64,000 bases of DNA, from the NCBI RefSeq assembly GCF_026319305.1, contig NZ_JAPDMV010000014.1, positions 1-64,000 on the forward strand, written 5' to 3'. A model generated the notes under the pieces. The model had not been told where the DNA came from. It was given only the letters and a program-made list of their open reading frames with translations, and did no database searches. Made by a program: the position numbers and the translations under genes. This DNA comes from Methylophaga sp. OBS4. Its GTDB lineage: Bacteria > Pseudomonadota > Gammaproteobacteria > Nitrosococcales > Methylophagaceae. Of the stretch, positions 5,868 to 21,700 are shown one piece after another. Position 1 is the first letter of the stretch. Every line of letters starts with the position of its first letter.

Positions 5868-6653
5868 ATGAATCAGGCTTTATGGATTGCCAAAACCGGA
5901 CTCGATGCGCAACAGACGCGGATGTCGGTGATTTCAAACAATCTGGCTAACGTGAATACCACCGGCTTCAAACAGGATCGGGCGGTGTTTGAAGACTTGC
6001 TGTATCAGACGATTCGTCAGCCGGGGGCCGAGTCTTCGGCCAGTACGCAGCTACCCTCGGGTTTGATGCTCGGTACCGGTGTGCGCACCGTCGCAACAGA
6101 AAAGATGCACAGCCAGGGTAATATCGTTCAAAGCGGCAACGCGCTGGATATCGCGATTCAGGGCCGGGGTTTTTTCCAGATCCTGATGCCGGATGGCTCT
6201 CTTTCCTACACCCGTGACGGTACTTTCCAGCTTGATTCTACCGGTCAGGTGGTGATGTCGAACGGTTATCCGCTGGAACCGGCTATTACGATTCCGGATG
6301 ATGCGCAAAGCATCACTGTGGGTTCAGATGGCACTGTCAGTGTGTTACAGCCGGGCGATAACGCACCGACAATTGTCGGCAATATTGATTTGGCTGACTT
6401 TGTGAACCCGACCGGTTTACAGGCGGTTGGTGAAAACCTGTTTAAAGAAACCGGCGCCAGCGGCACGGTCATCACCGACACGCCTGGACTGACCGGTCTG
6501 GGTACGCTTGTAGGCGGTGCTTTGGAAACCTCTAATGTCAATGTCGTCACTGAACTGATAAACATGATTGAAACCCAGCGTGCCTATGAAATGAATTCCA
6601 AGGCGATTTCCACCGCCGATCAGATGCTGCAATACGCTAGTCAGAATCTGTAA
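5868..6653 (+). CDS. flgG: Flagellar distal rod protein FlgG
   Basis: The distal rod (driveshaft) subunit passing through the L and P rings. The 261-residue product is of canonical length, starts [19 protein letters not shown], carries [20 protein letters not shown] and the conserved C-terminal block [27 protein letters not shown] ribosome site precedes the ATG. It is the last gene before a repeat-bearing intergenic gap. Confidence 0.98.
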
Positions 6654-6685
6654 GTCTGATGTTTAAGGCCTGTTAACTCTAATCT

Positions 6686-6710
6686 GGCTCCCATACCCTG
6701 CGTGGGAGCC
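6686..6710 (+). terminator. Stem-loop after flgG
   Basis: A perfect 8-bp stem (GGCTCCCA/TGGGAGCC) with a 9-base loop, 33 bases after the flgG stop. There is no T run, so it may be an mRNA-stabilising hairpin or a weak terminator. Confidence 0.5.
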
Positions 6711-6942
6711 AAACCTAATAGGGTGTGTTACCTCGAGCGCAAATCATTATGTCATTTCGAGCGTAGCCGAGAAATCCAGGAGATGCCTCCGCTGCTGTTA
6801 TGTCCAGAGAAGGACGGGGTTTCCCTTCCCAATAGAGTAAGGAGCCCATGCTTTCTCCCTGGAATTCATGGGGATCCCTCAGGGGCTGATGTCATTGCCA
6901 CTGGATTATTAGGGAGGACCGTGGGAACCAGCGAAGTTATGT
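6711..6942. repeat. Degenerate dispersed repeat in the flgG-flgH gap
   Basis: This stretch without a gene contains a hairpin-forming segment at about 6751-6778 (ATTTCGAGC...GAGAAAT), whose false translation reads CHFERSREI. That peptide is familiar as the spurious product of a repeat common in many bacterial genomes. The remainder is GC-mixed with no plausible gene; the 82-codon frame from 6702 has no ribosome site and no protein-like pattern. It separates flgG from the flgH promoter. Confidence 0.6.
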
Positions 6943-6958
6943 TGGCATAAAGCCTGCA
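6943..6958 (+). promoter_or_regulatory. Sigma-54 promoter for flgHIJKL
   Basis: TGGCAT-N5-CTGCA with the GG and GC 10 bases apart, 34 bases before the flgH ATG. This makes flgHIJKL a separate transcription unit from flgBCDEFG. Confidence 0.8.
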
Positions 6959-6992
6959 TCAAGAATCGTTAGAATGAATCCGGAGAAAAATC

Positions 6993-7700
6993 ATGATAAC
7001 TATGCGGCATAGTTTGATTATTCTGGCGCTGCTTATATTGGCCGGTTGTAACAACAATAACGTTAAGCGTGACCCCGCTTATGCGGCTGTGCGTCCGCTA
7101 GCCGTGGAGCCGCAGCAGAGACAGGACGGCGCGATTTTTGACGTCCGTAATAATATTGCCTTGTTTGAAGATTACCGTGCCCGCCGGGTTGGCGATATTT
7201 TGACGGTGCGTCTGGAAGAACAAACCGATGCCGAAAAAGAATCTGAAACTACGGTGAGCAAGAGTAATAGCAACAGCATCAATAATCCGGTTCTGTTCGG
7301 TACCACGCCGCAGTTTGATCTACCGAGCCAGTTACCGCTGGCTAGCACCAAAGACAATAATCTAGCATTCAGTCTGGGGTCAGAAAGTGACTTCGAGGGT
7401 GAGGGCGAGAGCGAACAGAATAATAAACTGAGCGGCAATATCAGTGTATCGGTGGTCGAGGTGTTGCCCAACGGCAATATGATTATTCGTGGTGAAAAAG
7501 TCATCACTATCAATCAGGGAAACGAATATATCCGCCTGGCCGGCATGGTAAGTCCTCGTGATATTGCGGCCGATAATTCGATTTCCTCGGTACGCATTGC
7601 TGATGCACAAATTTCCTATGTTGGTGACGGGGCTCCTAATGATGCCAATGTGATGGGCTGGTTGAGCCGGTTTTTTGTCAGTGCCTTGATGCCTTTTTAA
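6993..7700 (+). CDS. flgH: Flagellar L-ring lipoprotein FlgH
   Basis: FlgH forms the outer-membrane L ring around the rod. The 235-residue product has a lipoprotein signal peptide with lipobox LAGC, the lipidated cysteine being residue 19. It also has FlgH motifs such as RVGDILTVRLEE, NGNMIIRGEK and the C-terminal GWLSRFF. A GGAGA ribosome site lies six bases before the first ATG; a second ATG at 7002 is possible but gives a shorter signal. First gene of flgHIJKL. Confidence 0.96.
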   Translation: MITMRHSLIILALLILAGCNNNNVKRDPAYAAVRPLAVEPQQRQDGAIFDVRNNIALFEDYRARRVGDILTVRLEEQTDAEKESETTVSKSNSNSINNPVLFGTTPQFDLPSQLPLASTKDNNLAFSLGSESDFEGEGESEQNNKLSGNISVSVVEVLPNGNMIIRGEKVITINQGNEYIRLAGMVSPRDIAADNSISSVRIADAQISYVGDGAPNDANVMGWLSRFFVSALMPF

Positions 7701-8806: not shown

Positions 8807-9781
8807 ATGGCCTACGATTCTCCGGTGGCGCAATCGGCGATTGATTTTCATGGCCTGAATGCATTGCGATACTCCGCCAATCAGGATAGCGAGAATCAGC
8901 AAACCCTGCGCCAGGTTGCCGGTCAGTTTGAGTCGTTGTTTGTCACCATGATGTTGAAATCCATGCGTCAGGCCAGCCTGGGCGAAGGCATTTTTGATTC
9001 ATCCCAGAGCAAGATGTATCAGGATATGACGGATCAGCAGCTGGCATCGGATTTATCCGCAGGCGGCGGCTTGGGCTTGCAGGATGTGATTTTGCGTCAA
9101 CTCGGGGGCCAGCAGGCCGCCACCGGCAATAAAGTGACAGCCGGTCAGACATACAGCATTGATACCGTAATCATTCGTCCGGCTTTGGGGGCACGGGTTA
9201 ACGCCCGCATTATTGAACAAATCCGTGAATCAATGGGGTCAGAGTCATTGATTTTGCAAAACCCAAAAATCAATGACTCTGACCCCATTGATTTTGGATC
9301 GCCACAGGACTTTGTTGAAAAATTATGGCCATACGCAAAAGCAGCTGCCGATAAAATCGGGGTGGCACCGGAAGTGATCCTGTCTCAGGCGGCATTGGAA
9401 ACCGGTTGGGGTAAACATATTCTGCAGACAACCGGCGGCGATAGCAGTTTCAACCTGTTCAATATCAAGGCGGATGCCAGTTGGAACGGTGAGTACACAA
9501 CGATCAATGCGCTGGAATACCGCCATGGCAAAGCCATCAACGAAGCCGCGGATTTTCGCGCTTATGATTCGTATCAGCAAAGTTTTGACGATTATGTTCA
9601 GTTTCTGCAAACCCAGCCGAGATATCGGGAAGCACTGCAGCATGTGGATGATGCTGAGGCGTTTGTTGAGCATTTGCACAAAGCCGGCTATGCCACTGAT
9701 CCACAGTATGCAGACAAGATTAAACGCATTATGAACAGCGCAACGCTGGCACAGATTTCGCTGGATCTGGGAACCGCCTGA
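8807..9781 (+). CDS. flgJ: Flagellar rod scaffold / peptidoglycan hydrolase FlgJ
   Basis: FlgJ caps the rod (N-terminal domain) and opens the peptidoglycan (C-terminal glucosaminidase). In the 324-residue product the rod-binding part spans about residues 25-100 (GQFESLFVTMMLKSMRQASL). The hydrolase part spans about 165-315, with the glucosaminidase motif QAALETGWG and its catalytic glutamate. The linker at about residues 141-162 is translated straight through a 66-bp perfect palindromic repeat (9228-9293), adding about 22 residues that look alien to the family (ESLILQNPKINDSDP). The frame stays open through the repeat, so the protein is probably functional. Confidence 0.95.
   Translation: MAYDSPVAQSAIDFHGLNALRYSANQDSENQQTLRQVAGQFESLFVTMMLKSMRQASLGEGIFDSSQSKMYQDMTDQQLASDLSAGGGLGLQDVILRQLGGQQAATGNKVTAGQTYSIDTVIIRPALGARVNARIIEQIRESMGSESLILQNPKINDSDPIDFGSPQDFVEKLWPYAKAAADKIGVAPEVILSQAALETGWGKHILQTTGGDSSFNLFNIKADASWNGEYTTINALEYRHGKAINEAADFRAYDSYQQSFDDYVQFLQTQPRYREALQHVDDAEAFVEHLHKAGYATDPQYADKIKRIMNSATLAQISLDLGTA
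9228..9293. repeat. REP/BIME-like palindromic element inside flgJ
   Basis: Two exact 28-base arms (9228-9255 and 9266-9293) form a perfect inverted repeat around a 10-base loop. Each arm is itself a small hairpin (AATCAATG ... CATTGATT around GGGTCAGAGT). The GGGGTCAGAGT core resembles repeats associated with REP-associated tyrosine transposases; that link is from memory and not tested here. The insertion is 66 bases, a multiple of three, and lies in the FlgJ interdomain linker. Confidence 0.85.
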
Positions 9782-12190: not shown

Positions 12191-14545
12191 ATGATGTTCA
12201 GTATTATTATTCCAACATTTAACAGTGCTAATGATATTGTCGAGACGATAGAAAGCATAGCGGCTCAACGTTCAGGAAGTGTTGAACTGGAAATTATCGT
12301 TGTTGATGATTGCTCAAACGACAATACTGTTAATTTAGTGCGAGGCCTTCAGATCAAGTATTCCTTTCTGAACGTTTTATGTTCTGATAAAAATAGCGGC
12401 CCCGGAATTGCCAGAAACAAGGGCATACAGGAATCTTCCGGAGACTGGATTTTATTCATAGACAGCGATGACAGACCGGCTCCCAACATGCTGACTGTAT
12501 TGAGTGCTGAAATATCTGCTGTTGGCAGGGCTTGTGATTTACTATGCTTTGATTGGGCCTATTCTGCCAATTCTGCTGCACCTGTTTATGGCTTCATGGG
12601 CCGAGATGATTTGGCGTTGTTGATTTCTAATGATAAAGAAGCGATTATTCAGGCCTATTTATGCAGTCAGGTTGACAGTTCTGTTATTTATTCGGCTTTC
12701 AGAAAATCGCTGATTACCGAAAATGAAATCAGTTTCAGGCCCGGTTTGCATGAAGATGTTGATTTTATGTTTCGTTGTCTGCTTAATGCCAGGCAGGTCA
12801 ACAGTTTGGATAACTGTCTGTATTTCAAGAATAATCGTCCTGAGTCTATCGTCAATACCATCAGCCCCAGACATATTGAAGGATATTTTGGCGCCTTGGC
12901 AGCTATACATCATGAGCTGGCGGCGCACGATAAGTTAGATCGGTACAAAGATGATTTCCTGACCTGCATCATCAACATCGCGGCATCCAGGCTGCTCAGA
13001 CTGTTACGAATGGAAACGGATAACAGCGCTTGGCATATGGCGCTCTTTTTCATGTATCGGAATATCAAGCAGTTGATGGATCAGGCGGAACTTGATTACT
13101 TGCCTGATAACAAGGGGGAGCGTTTTCGAACCAAGTATCAGCAGATATTTGATTTCTTTATGCAAGCCATGCTCAACGTTAACACTCAGGATACGGTGCC
13201 GGTCAGTACCATCAAATCGTTTCTGGAAGAAATTAAAAACAAGAGCTGGAGCTGCTATGACCTGCATCATTCCGTGTTTTTGGCACCAGATGAAGTCCGG
13301 ACCTGCTGCAAAAGGTTTTTCCACGATGGTGAGCTGAAAGGCGATGTCGTGTTGTTGGAGGGTGATAACAGCAATCACTTTACTGAGTTTGACTATGAAG
13401 ACATTATTGCTGCTAAATCCGAACTGTATAAAGAAATAAACCGCGATAATGCGCCAGCCTGCAAGGGCTGTCCTTTTCTGAGCTTTGCAGATTGGGGGCA
13501 GCCGCTGGCGAAAGGGATCGGCTATCTGTCGTTCGAGTACCATTCAGTGTGCAATATGAAATGCAGTTATTGCAGCGCAACCTACTATGGCGGCCAGAAA
13601 GTCACTTATGACATTGAAGGTTTGACTGACTCTATTGTCTCGGCGGGTGCGCTGGATAATAACGAATATATTGTGTGGGGTGGGGGAGAGCCGTTACTGG
13701 ATAAACGTTTTAGCCCGATGCTGCAAAAGATCGCCGAGCATGTCCCTGGTGTGAAACAACGGGTGATTACCAATGCCACACGTTACTCGGACAGTCTGGC
13801 CGAGTTGATGGCAAGCAATCAGGCCTATATTGTCACCAGTATCGATGCAGGTACCGAAGACACGTTTAACGTGGTACGTAAATACAACCGTATGTCAAAG
13901 GTAATGGCCAACCTCAAACGTTATGCAGAGGTAGCCCAGCACAACGTCATTATCAAATATATTTTTCTTCCGGAGAACAAACACATTACTGAGCTTAAGG
14001 CATTTGTGTCGTTAATCCAGGAATACCGGCTGCAGAATTGTAACTTTCAGATAAGTTTTGACTTCAAGGAAGAAATCCTGCCTTTTGATGATTTGAAGAA
14101 TATGGTGTTGCTGTATGGTTTATTGCTAGAGCTTGGCGTAAGACTGGTGTTTTTTGACGATTTAATCATGCAGCGACTGGCGCCATTGGATTCGGTCGAG
14201 CATGAATTGCTCAGAAAAACGTTGGCTGAACATGGGCTCGGAAATACATTGGCCCAGGACATCATTCCAGGCAGGGTGACGGTTTGGGGAACCGGGGCTC
14301 AAACCAGGCTTTTGGTGGATAAAAGCCGATTTTTTGTTGGGAAGGAAATAGCATGTTTTATCGATCCCCGTCCACAGAGGATCGGACAGTCTTTCATGGG
14401 TAAACCTATTGTTTCGCCGTCGGTATTGGCTGAAAATGATCTGCCGGTTGTGATCGCTGCCGTGCAAAGTGCGCCACAGATCTATTCCCAATACATGGAT
14501 CTCGGCTTGCCGGAATCCAGACTTGTAAAAGCGTTGGTTATCTGA
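12191..14545 (+). CDS. Glycosyltransferase family 2 / radical SAM fusion protein
   Basis: A 784-residue protein that joins two enzyme types. Residues 1-230 are a GT-A family 2 glycosyltransferase (SIIIPTFNSANDIVETIESI, VVDDCSNDNTV, and the metal-binding region DSDDRP). Residues about 230-350 are helical. Residues about 420-680 are a radical SAM domain with C454-x3-C458-x2-C461 (CNMKCSYC), a GGGEPLL block, and an upstream C424-x2-C427 pair that could ligate an auxiliary cluster. A C-terminal segment (VWGTGAQTRLLVD) resembles nucleotide-binding domains of sugar-modifying enzymes. It lies between flgL and the flagellin glycan genes, so modification of flagellin or its glycan is likely; the substrate is unknown. 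Confidence 0.85.
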   Translation: MMFSIIIPTFNSANDIVETIESIAAQRSGSVELEIIVVDDCSNDNTVNLVRGLQIKYSFLNVLCSDKNSGPGIARNKGIQESSGDWILFIDSDDRPAPNMLTVLSAEISAVGRACDLLCFDWAYSANSAAPVYGFMGRDDLALLISNDKEAIIQAYLCSQVDSSVIYSAFRKSLITENEISFRPGLHEDVDFMFRCLLNARQVNSLDNCLYFKNNRPESIVNTISPRHIEGYFGALAAIHHELAAHDKLDRYKDDFLTCIINIAASRLLRLLRMETDNSAWHMALFFMYRNIKQLMDQAELDYLPDNKGERFRTKYQQIFDFFMQAMLNVNTQDTVPVSTIKSFLEEIKNKSWSCYDLHHSVFLAPDEVRTCCKRFFHDGELKGDVVLLEGDNSNHFTEFDYEDIIAAKSELYKEINRDNAPACKGCPFLSFADWGQPLAKGIGYLSFEYHSVCNMKCSYCSATYYGGQKVTYDIEGLTDSIVSAGALDNNEYIVWGGGEPLLDKRFSPMLQKIAEHVPGVKQRVITNATRYSDSLAELMASNQAYIVTSIDAGTEDTFNVVRKYNRMSKVMANLKRYAEVAQHNVIIKYIFLPENKHITELKAFVSLIQEYRLQNCNFQISFDFKEEILPFDDLKNMVLLYGLLLELGVRLVFFDDLIMQRLAPLDSVEHELLRKTLAEHGLGNTLAQDIIPGRVTVWGTGAQTRLLVDKSRFFVGKEIACFIDPRPQRIGQSFMGKPIVSPSVLAENDLPVVIAAVQSAPQIYSQYMDLGLPESRLVKALVI

Positions 14546-18719: not shown

Positions 18720-21700
18720 ATGACAGAAGCCAGACAGGTGCCCAGAGTCAGTGTCGTCATCGCCAGCTACAATTATCAGCAATACATTGGTGAAGCTATA
18801 GATTCAGTACTGGCTCAGACCTATCAGGACTGGCAACTGGTTATTGTTGATGATGCGTCGACAGATGATTCTCCGAACATTATCAAGCAATATCAACGAC
18901 AGCATCCGTGCAAAATCAAATTTATCAGCCTCAGTGAAAATAGAGGCATCGGTTATGTTGCTAATCTGTGTTACGACAATTGCGAAGGTCAATTGATTGC
19001 CCACTTGGGAGCTGATGATCGTATGGTACCTGATCGTCTTGCACAGCAGGTGGCTTACTTTGACAGTCACCCTGAGGCTGGGGTGGTTTGTAGTGATGTG
19101 TTTGTTATTGATGGTGAAGGCCGGCGGGTTGAAACTAAAACGGTGTTTTCAACCCCGATTACCGATCTCAGAATGCAGTTATTGCAGGGAAACATTATCA
19201 ATTCCCCCTCTGCAACGTTCAGAAAGAATGTCTTCACAGAGGCAGGTAAGCTGAATCCAGTTTTGCAATATGTGCAAGACTTTGAACACTGGTTGAGGGT
19301 TTTGGAAAAGTTTGAAATCGTCCGGCTGGATGAAAAGCTCACTGAATACCGGATTCATGGCAAAAACTTGAGTGTTCAGAAACCGGGACAACACGCGTAT
19401 GCCGGATCATATGAAACGGTGATCAGTGTGTTGAGGGCGATTGATCGCCGTAATCGTATACTTCACTCGGATGTTCAAATTGATCAGGATGCGCTTATTC
19501 AGAAAAAACTTCAGTTGGCTCAGGCGGCGATCGATGTTGAGATGAAATATCTCCAGCAATTCAAGTTCGCCAGTGCACTTGTTTACTTTATTGTGCTGGA
19601 GATATTTGAGCTTAATCCTGACTGTGATGAGGCGACGAAACTGTTACAAGAAGTTTATCGCGCCTTGGGCGATACGGCGCGCGCTGAAGGCAAGAAACCC
19701 TATACGGTTAATGAGTTTAACCAGAATCGACATCAGTCACGCGGCAATATACCAACAACGCCGCTGGATCTGGCTATTGAGACTGCAACAGGGCTTAACC
19801 AGCCGTTGCCGGATGTGGTGGCAAAAATAATCAGCAATACGGCCAACGGTAAAATTAATGCTACCGCCAAAGAGCAGTTGTTGCTGCAAATGGCTGAATA
19901 TCTGATTAAAGCAGGACTAAAGGATGTGGATTATCATGCCGGTAAAGGCTTGGGCCGCAAGCGTCGCAGCGAGCTTAATCGCGCTCAGCTGCTGCTGAAT
20001 GAACAATATGATGCCGGCGAAGAAAGCATGGCTATTTCACAAATCAAGCAGCAGCTCGTTCGCTTGCTTGAACACGATGACTATCAAATCTGGATGCGAA
20101 AGCATGAACTGCGTGAGGTGGATGCCGAAATTCTGGCTGAGCGCATGATGTTGCACTGGCCGCTGCAGCCGGTGATGCATTGTTTTATGTTCGTATTGCC
20201 GGGTGAGGAAAGCCTGCTGGCCGACACGATTGATTCATTGGCCGGTCAGCTGCTTAAGAGCTGGCAACTGACCGTGGTGGCGGCGACACCTGCCCCCGAT
20301 CCCATTTTTGAACAAGCCGATTTTCTTCACTGGCGGACTTTAGATAGCAGTGACGATGCCAACCAGGTGTTGAATGAAGAAATCAGTCGTTACCCTTCAC
20401 ACTGGGTGAGCTTTATTGAGCCGGGTATGCAGTTCAGGGTGCATTCTCTGGCTAAGATCGCGGATTACATTAATTTGTATCCCGGCTGCAGCTTTATTTA
20501 CAGCGATGATGATCAGATTGATCAATTCCATCAACGCAGTCATCCACGATTCAAGCCGGACTTTAATCTTGATTTACTGCGTTCATCTCCCTATATCGGT
20601 AATGGCTGGATGCCGGCGGGTCATTTGATTCAGCTTGGCGGGATACAGAAGCTGGCGGGCGCTGAAAATTATGATTTGGCATTGCGCTGGTATGACAGCT
20701 TTGGAGAGACTGCTTTCTGTCATATTCCAGACGTGCTGATACACAAAAGCAGCCAGGTAGACAGACCGTTTGATGCGATAGCGGGCGAACAGGCCTTGCA
20801 ACAGCATTTTGAGCGCAACGCGGTTGCGGTCAAAATTGAAGCGGGTTATGTCGATAACAGTTACCGGGTGGAATATTTGCATCAGCAACAGCCTAAAGTC
20901 ACGATTATCATTCCGACCAAGGACAAACTGGAGTTTTTTCAGCCCTGTATTGAAACGCTGCTGGAGAAAACCCGCTATCCCGACTATGAGGTGTTGGTCG
21001 TAGATAATCAGAGCACCGATCCGGATACGCTGGCTTATTACCGGCAACTCAGTGCCGAACATGGGGATCGGGTTCGGGTTTTATTCTATGACAAACCCTT
21101 TAACTTTGCGGCCATCAACAACTGGGCGGCAGAGCAGGCGACAGGCGAATTTCTGCTATTGCTGAATAATGATACCGAAATTATTCAAGGCGATTGGCTG
21201 AGCCGGATGATGGTGCATGGTCAGCGTGAGGACGTCGGTATTGTCGGTGCCAGATTATTGTATCCGGGCTCCGGTCGCGTGCAGCATATCGGTGTAATTC
21301 TGGGCATCCGGCAAATTGCCGATCATCACTATTGCAATATGCTGGCACTCAATGATAGCAGTCATATGGAGCGGGCAAGACTGGATCAGAATTTCTCTGC
21401 GGTGACGGCGGCCGTTATGCTGGTCAAGCGCGAGGTTTATCTGCAAGTGGGCGGCATGGATGTGGATCACCTCGCGGTACTGTTTAATGATGTGGATTTC
21501 TGCCTGCGGGTGGGGGAGCGGGGTTACCGTATAGTCTGGACACCTTACGCGATGGTGGTCCATCACGGCAGTACCAGTGTCGGTGAAAAACAGGAAAGCA
21601 GTTTTTATTACGATTGGCAGGGCTACGGCAGAAAAGCGGAACGCACCCGAGCAGAACAACGTTATATGCTGCAACAATGGTTACCGGTTCTGGCGAATGA

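Follow-up and report, generated by a model that had tools for sequence, protein, structure and literature searches.

A perfect palindrome resembling a pair of TIRYT-type ends stands in place of the FlgJ linker in a Methylophaga genome

The flgJ gene of Methylophaga sp. OBS4 lies in the 64,000-nucleotide stretch of DNA that we analyzed (contig NZ_JAPDMV010000014.1, positions 1 to 64,000; the window) and carries, between its two domains, a perfect palindrome of 66 nt (9228 to 9293). We consider it likely that a miniature, gene-less pair of terminal inverted repeats (TIRs) of the TIRYT type (TIR-associated tyrosine transposase) entered flgJ at this point and now constitutes the linker of the protein.

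The gene itself (8807 to 9781, plus strand) is intact by the ORF list and profile matches and encodes a two-domain protein of 324 amino acids. Pfam places the rod-binding domain at residues 51 to 98 (8957 to 9100, plus strand) and the glucosaminidase domain at residues 175 to 312 (9329 to 9742, plus strand), and the product scores 312.9 bits against the NCBIfam model TIGR02541 (flagell_FlgJ; cut-off, 193). The first TIR copy, AATCAATGGGGTCAGAGTCATTGATTTT, occupies 9228 to 9255 on the plus strand, and an identical copy lies inverted at 9266 to 9293 on the minus strand; the arms are complementary at 28 of 28 bases (100%) and are separated by a gene-free spacer of 10 nt (9256 to 9265, plus strand). 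Each arm also folds alone, with AATCAATG and CATTGATT pairing around GGGTCAGAGT. The preliminary description had reported a perfect palindrome with 28-nt arms and a 10-nt loop, each arm itself a hairpin, situated in frame between both FlgJ domains, free of stop codons and a multiple of three in length, and all of this was confirmed.

The palindrome encodes the residues SMGSESLILQNPKINDSDPID (codons 142 to 162; 9230 to 9292, plus strand), and its ends overlap the codons of the flanking residues E141 and F163, both of which are conserved. Of its six possible frames, the 66-mer has a single open one on each strand, and flgJ reads the one on its own strand. This is unremarkable by itself, because a given frame is open in 23.5% of shuffled 66-mers of the same bases. 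In an AlphaFold2 model of the protein (26 rows), which with a mean pLDDT of 63.8 is a rough model only, residues 143 to 157 are predicted to be disordered (pLDDT below 50) between helices at residues 128 to 142 and 166 to 184.

Two other features of the window were noted. Between flgG and flgH, an ORF at 6702 to 6950 has a translation containing CHFERSREIQ; its DNA (GTCATTTCGAGCG...) recalls what we take to be a dispersed repeat of many bacteria, and no inverted or direct repeat was found within 6640 to 7010. After flgL, an ORF of 784 amino acids (12191 to 14545) appears by eye to join a glycosyltransferase-2 part to a radical-SAM-like part (CNMKCSYCSATYYGG).

FlgJ was detected in 62 of 95 genomes, and 29 of those loci were aligned, none of which carries GGGGTCAGA, the motif of the arms, in flgJ. 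The near relatives, from Methylophaga, are 68 to 72% identical to the window protein and have 21 to 23 other residues at the place of codons 142 to 162; a codon-level comparison found no alignable remnant of these residues in the window gene. Taken as the stretch that separates the rod-binding part from the F.SP motif, the linker is 65 residues long in the window and 61 to 67 in 41 of 47 parsed relatives (the rest having 27, 70, 72, 72, 82, and 82), these 47 coming from 64 flgJ loci, of which 17 were unparsable, with some genomes duplicated between two collections. Since the linker of relatives has the same length and other residues, the element is shown to have replaced the FlgJ linker rather than added to it, which amounts to an exchange in effect. 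The preliminary description held that the palindrome had inserted about 22 residues that an alignment of relatives might reveal as absent. The palindrome is indeed absent from them, and it does supply 21 in-frame codons, but the relatives have a linker of equal length, and the protein has not been lengthened.

Similar pairs exist elsewhere. Gene-less inverted pairs of the form GGGGTCAGAN{20,50}TCTGACCCC occur in 50 of 369 genomes of the Gammaproteobacteria (39 of 271 genera; reversed control, 0), with 1 to 27 exact pairs per positive genome and inner sequences that are genome specific. In the family to which the window belongs, 4 of 57 genomes have them. From about 205 pairs counted in the two surveys, 145 distinct ones were examined for long through-frames, and in 139 of these one or more of the six frames is open (mean, 2.28). 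A conserved protein continues on both sides in three: flgJ, recD in genome G136, and tmcA in genome G035, the last from the window's own family. The RecD element, whose reading frame corresponds to that used in flgJ, is translated as KSMGSESIDACLTSIDSDPID, with Pfam and Escherichia coli RecD matches on either side, and the distance from GDIC to FGDH is 22 residues in G136 versus 32 in the 78%-identical protein of G263 (net change, -10). In TmcA, LPQL and YLT are separated by 28 residues in G035 versus 12 in the 80%-identical protein of G038 (+16).

Among 29 aligned TmcA relatives, one more element was found at the same site, in G032 (locus L259), where it is mutated (GGGGTCGGA), adds 22 residues, is bordered at either end by a small remnant of host residues, and lies in a frame with one in-frame stop. 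The TmcA tree joins G035 to the element-free G038 (support, 0.999) and then to two further element-free sequences (1.000); L259 joins only outside these, at a node with a support of just 0.284. This grouping makes a double gain more probable than a single gain followed by several losses, and TmcA probably acquired the element twice, independently.

Two further loci are probable in-frame cases: L226, an 871-amino-acid surface-like ORF, and L293, where the pair is N-terminal to an RNase_H_2 domain. Other candidates were dropped. The frames at L203, L207, L227, L229, L230, L243, L245, and L250 (3377 to 4339) and those at L295, L303, L331, L333, L334, L339, and L341 matched no Pfam family, and L337 (Y1_Tnp) and L340 (DUF938) have a domain on one side only; the dropped stop-to-stop frames come mostly from genomes with GC contents of 0.61 to 0.69. 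The Pfam frame scan covered the loci other than L191 (pair near the ORF end), L195, L244, L246, and the second L250 frame.

How might such an element have come to stand in place of a linker? By analogy with the IS200/IS605 group, we propose that the element was moved in trans by a Y1 transposase working on single-stranded DNA and that the original linker of the host disappeared either during that event or shortly afterwards; because the arms are still identical, there would have been little time for this loss. That the palindrome is young is suggested by the identity of its arms together with the tendency of long perfect palindromes towards instability in bacteria (Di Nocera et al. 2013, PMC3733652). 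The 21 new residues would act as a disordered spacer, and FlgJ would stay functional if the length and flexibility of the joint matter and its sequence does not. The element would then have been retained because it is nearly harmless, not for any action of its hairpin.

The strongest competitor concerns the order of these steps. A plain insertion may have been followed by an independent in-frame deletion, the two being joined by selection on linker length, and we give this only slightly less than an even chance. The insertion of IS200-type elements is precise, as this sequence of events would have it; the net gains of 16 and 22 residues in TmcA show that length can increase, and the element of L259 still has some host residues next to it at either end. 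Against it, the flgJ arms are identical at 28 of 28 positions though the old linker is wholly gone, and in flgJ, recD, and tmcA of G035 the element directly adjoins the conserved residues on both sides. In all four comparable cases, host linker residues are gone, with net length changes of 0, -10, +16, and +22. We lean slightly toward near-simultaneous loss of the linker in flgJ, with insertion and later trimming nearly as likely. A bolder proposal, which we put forward only tentatively and regard as rather doubtful, is that TIRYT-type elements are natural linker swappers, which in a single step substitute a readable hairpin pair for the entire variable inter-domain linker of a conserved protein (in FlgJ, RecD, and, twice, TmcA); host DNA would be traded for the element by exchange of single strands or by the repair of gaps at replication forks. 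Under either order of steps, survivorship explains the placement, in that only linkers tolerate the element.

The sequence of the arms points to a mobile origin. Y1 units bounded by TIRs that fit GGGGWSAS were given the name TIRtrons, and their transposase genes the name TIRYTs, by Di Nocera et al. 2013 (PMC3733652). This consensus is present in both flgJ arms as GGGGTCAG, within the GGGGTCAGA motifs at 9235 to 9243 (copy 1, plus strand) and 9278 to 9286 (copy 2, minus strand). By its sequence, each arm thus fits a hairpin-forming TIR of IS200-like Y1 units of the TIRYT/TIRtron kind. The mobile origin envisaged in the preliminary description is thereby borne out, in that the arms match, by sequence and by hairpin form, Y1-linked ends of other gammaproteobacteria and, in part, those of the same genome, and relatives are without the palindrome; its label of REP/BIME is not. 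Reading of the 28-nt arm revealed no GTAG, GTGG, or CGTC tetranucleotide at the hairpin foot, and because a GTAG-type foot is missing, the arm is not a REP by the foot definition. If the element were a canonical REP/BIME mobilized by a RAYT, this would account for paired inverted hairpins such as those of REPINs, and the Y1 protein of the same genome reaches 71.9 bits with the NCBIfam model REP_Tyr_transpos. That score is below the curated cut-off of 80, as are those of all three Y1 proteins compared (66.5 to 71.9 bits), and GGGGWSAS matches TIRYT ends. With the foot also absent, we rejected this origin as improbable. The genome holds one exact inverted pair, which falls short of the high copy number of REP/BIME elements.

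Pfam (E values up to 1) assigned Y1_Tnp and one weak, unrelated match to four Y1 proteins of 242 to 245 amino acids and detected no C-terminal HTH (Bac_DnaA_C, HTH_23, or HTH_28) in any of them. A C-terminal HTH is described for subclass 2.1, to which Quentin et al. 2018 (PMC6006769) assign 20 of the 26 described TIRYTs.

Within the Methylophaga genome (2.55 Mb, 83.55% complete), there are three copies of the 11-mer GGGGTCAGAGT, namely those of the two flgJ arms and one in contig 52. The 9-mer GGGGTCAGA occurs 26 times, many of these matches being due to chance since the reversed control gives 14; about eight look TIR-like by eye. Y1_Tnp was found at one place, flanked or neighbored by three of the TIR-like copies. 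The Y1 ORF there (243 amino acids; locus L034) has GAATCAAAGGGGTCAGACACGATTGATT on its left and, inverted, TTAATCAATGGGGTCAGACACGATCG on its right, with inverted GGGGTCAGACACGA ends. These ends have AATCAA(T/A)GGGGTCAGA in common with the flgJ arm, and one of the two also has its ATTGATT; the middle differs, the hairpin interior being CACGATTGATT at the Y1 ends versus GTCATTGATT in the arm. In this 83.55%-complete genome, no Y1 gene has ends identical to the flgJ arm, and flgJ is the sole site of the arm's exact 26-nt core. The preliminary description had looked to further arm copies and an IS200-like transposase in the genome and had named the absence of the arm elsewhere in it as a ground for refutation. 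The transposase is present, as one Y1 gene with TIRs related, not identical, to the arm; of arm copies, related TIRs are found, but the exact core is confined to flgJ, so that the stated ground for refutation holds if taken literally. Two side observations may be added: beside the Y1 gene, two small ORFs (L034, 2317 to 2840) resemble by eye a toxin-antitoxin pair, and L003 (935 to 1030) contains a 48-bp tandem duplication, both copies of which have AATCGTGTCTGACCCTTTTG, also a TIR-like end.

Across the class, AATCAATGGGGTCAGAN{0,8}TTGATT was found at 22 sites in 15 of 369 genomes (15 of 271 genera; reversed control, 0). Some copies end units of about 0.8 kb, as in G172, where copies at 19046 (plus) and 19835 (minus) enclose a Y1 ORF. 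The 26-nt core occurs in two genomes, and its exact copy in G098, from another family of the class, is half of an imperfect inverted pair. Paired outward GGGGWSAS ends with at least nine identical bases flank 13 of 32 distinct Y1 ORFs versus 7 of 828 random windows, these controls being drawn from loci without Y1, many of which had been picked for TIRs; the paired end is missing at 19 of the 32 ORFs, and the flanks of 8 of the 32 are clipped at a locus edge. In G420, the Y1 gene at L316 ends in GGGGTCAGAGTACT, and several pairs elsewhere in that genome have the same ends. The type thus shows the general MITE pattern of short, gene-less elements whose inverted ends match an autonomous relative; no autonomous unit identical to the flgJ copy was found. 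No target-site duplication was seen at flgJ, where the empty site is unreadable because the host linker is lost. IS200-type elements produce no target-site duplication.

The Y1 units of L121, L131, L139, and L140 terminate in outward tandem arrays of AATCAATGGGGTCAGACTC-like units, as though new copies had repeatedly landed at one AATCAA site; such arrays could disclose the target and in what order the copies inserted. Phage and plasmid records contained nothing matching 9222 to 9299; in IMG/VR, three stretches on two contigs (L176, L177, and L178) have a relaxed TIR, and viruses may carry the TIR.

Might the palindrome instead be immobile, having arisen locally from linker DNA by template switching, that is, by hairpin-templated copying? 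Such copying would yield perfectly identical arms and could make a pair out of one TIR. The 26-nt core in another family of the class, the occurrence of the motif beside Y1 genes, and the linkers of relatives, which carry no trace of the palindrome, led us to reject template switching alone as very improbable.

Very improbable, too, in our estimation, is that the hairpin owes its retention to a role as a signal in RNA or DNA, be it the inter-domain translational pause suggested in the preliminary description, an RNase III site, or a control element of the flg operon; we found no evidence of a regulatory role. The RNA fold of 9225 to 9296 is very stable (-47.1 kcal/mol versus -12.7 ± 3.0 for shuffles; z, -11.6; 0 of 200 shuffles as good), and long RNA hairpins are in general substrates of RNase III. 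None of the 29 flgJ loci of relatives carries GGGGTCAGA, however, and since 3 of 145 pairs have a conserved protein on both sides, nothing indicates a conserved role within genes. Rfam matches at 9100 to 9400 were limited to ten microRNA models, all far under their gathering scores; matches of this kind are to be expected from any long perfect hairpin.

The preferred reading, a TIRYT-type pair that has become a linker, has several published counterparts. In the excerpts of PMC3733652 on which we draw, TIRtrons likewise have an IS200-like Y1 gene between inverted repeats with GGGGWSAS, and the TIRs, sometimes self-complementary, are also met with by themselves, singly, in pairs, or in groups; the intragenic copies described there are GTAG/CGTC REPs, not TIRs, whereas here a TIR pair lies within genes, in frame, and replaces linker residues. 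Intragenic REP dimers of O. terrae, Thauera, Xanthomonas, and others code for 20 to 30 residues and are argued to sit in flexible linkers or loops (PMC3733652). They resemble our cases as inverted dimers in genes, linkers, and repair genes, but they belong to the GTAG/CGTC foot family and were published as insertions; the flgJ arm has no such foot, and in flgJ the length is kept. Because in-frame palindromic repeats in recBCD, uvrA, and dnaE are already in print (PMC3733652), the essential-type gene, which the preliminary description had stressed, is not the novelty. REPINs, gene-less inverted REP pairs whose movement in trans is ascribed to a Y1 enzyme (Bertels and Rainey 2011, PMC3116915), share the gene-less inverted hairpin pair and differ, as described there, in hairpin and foot. 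RPEs, compared by description, are also palindromic mobile DNA in frame within protein genes, in a lineage different from that of the window's element.

In-frame palindromic repeats within genes, linkers included, have thus been published for REPs and RPEs (PMC3733652, PMC6006769). Supplementary lists of intragenic elements aside, we found no report in the open-licence literature of TIRYT-type TIRs within genes or of linker replacement; the term TIRYT occurs there only in the two papers just cited, and titles and abstracts returned nothing on such repeats for the literal motif. The new part is the replacement of a linker by a TIRYT-type pair, a type less studied than those, at three genes (flgJ, recD, and tmcA).

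Palindromic repeats are usually regarded as extragenic. Here a mobile hairpin pair appears to serve as the joint of a conserved protein of a cell machine, FlgJ. The DNA-repair helicase RecD and, twice at one place, the tRNA-modifying enzyme TmcA present the same picture. The case reveals sites in proteins that tolerate the exchange of their whole sequence. Pairs of GGGGTCAGA provide a simple signature for finding more such cases, and the question of whether these elements insert or replace becomes testable.
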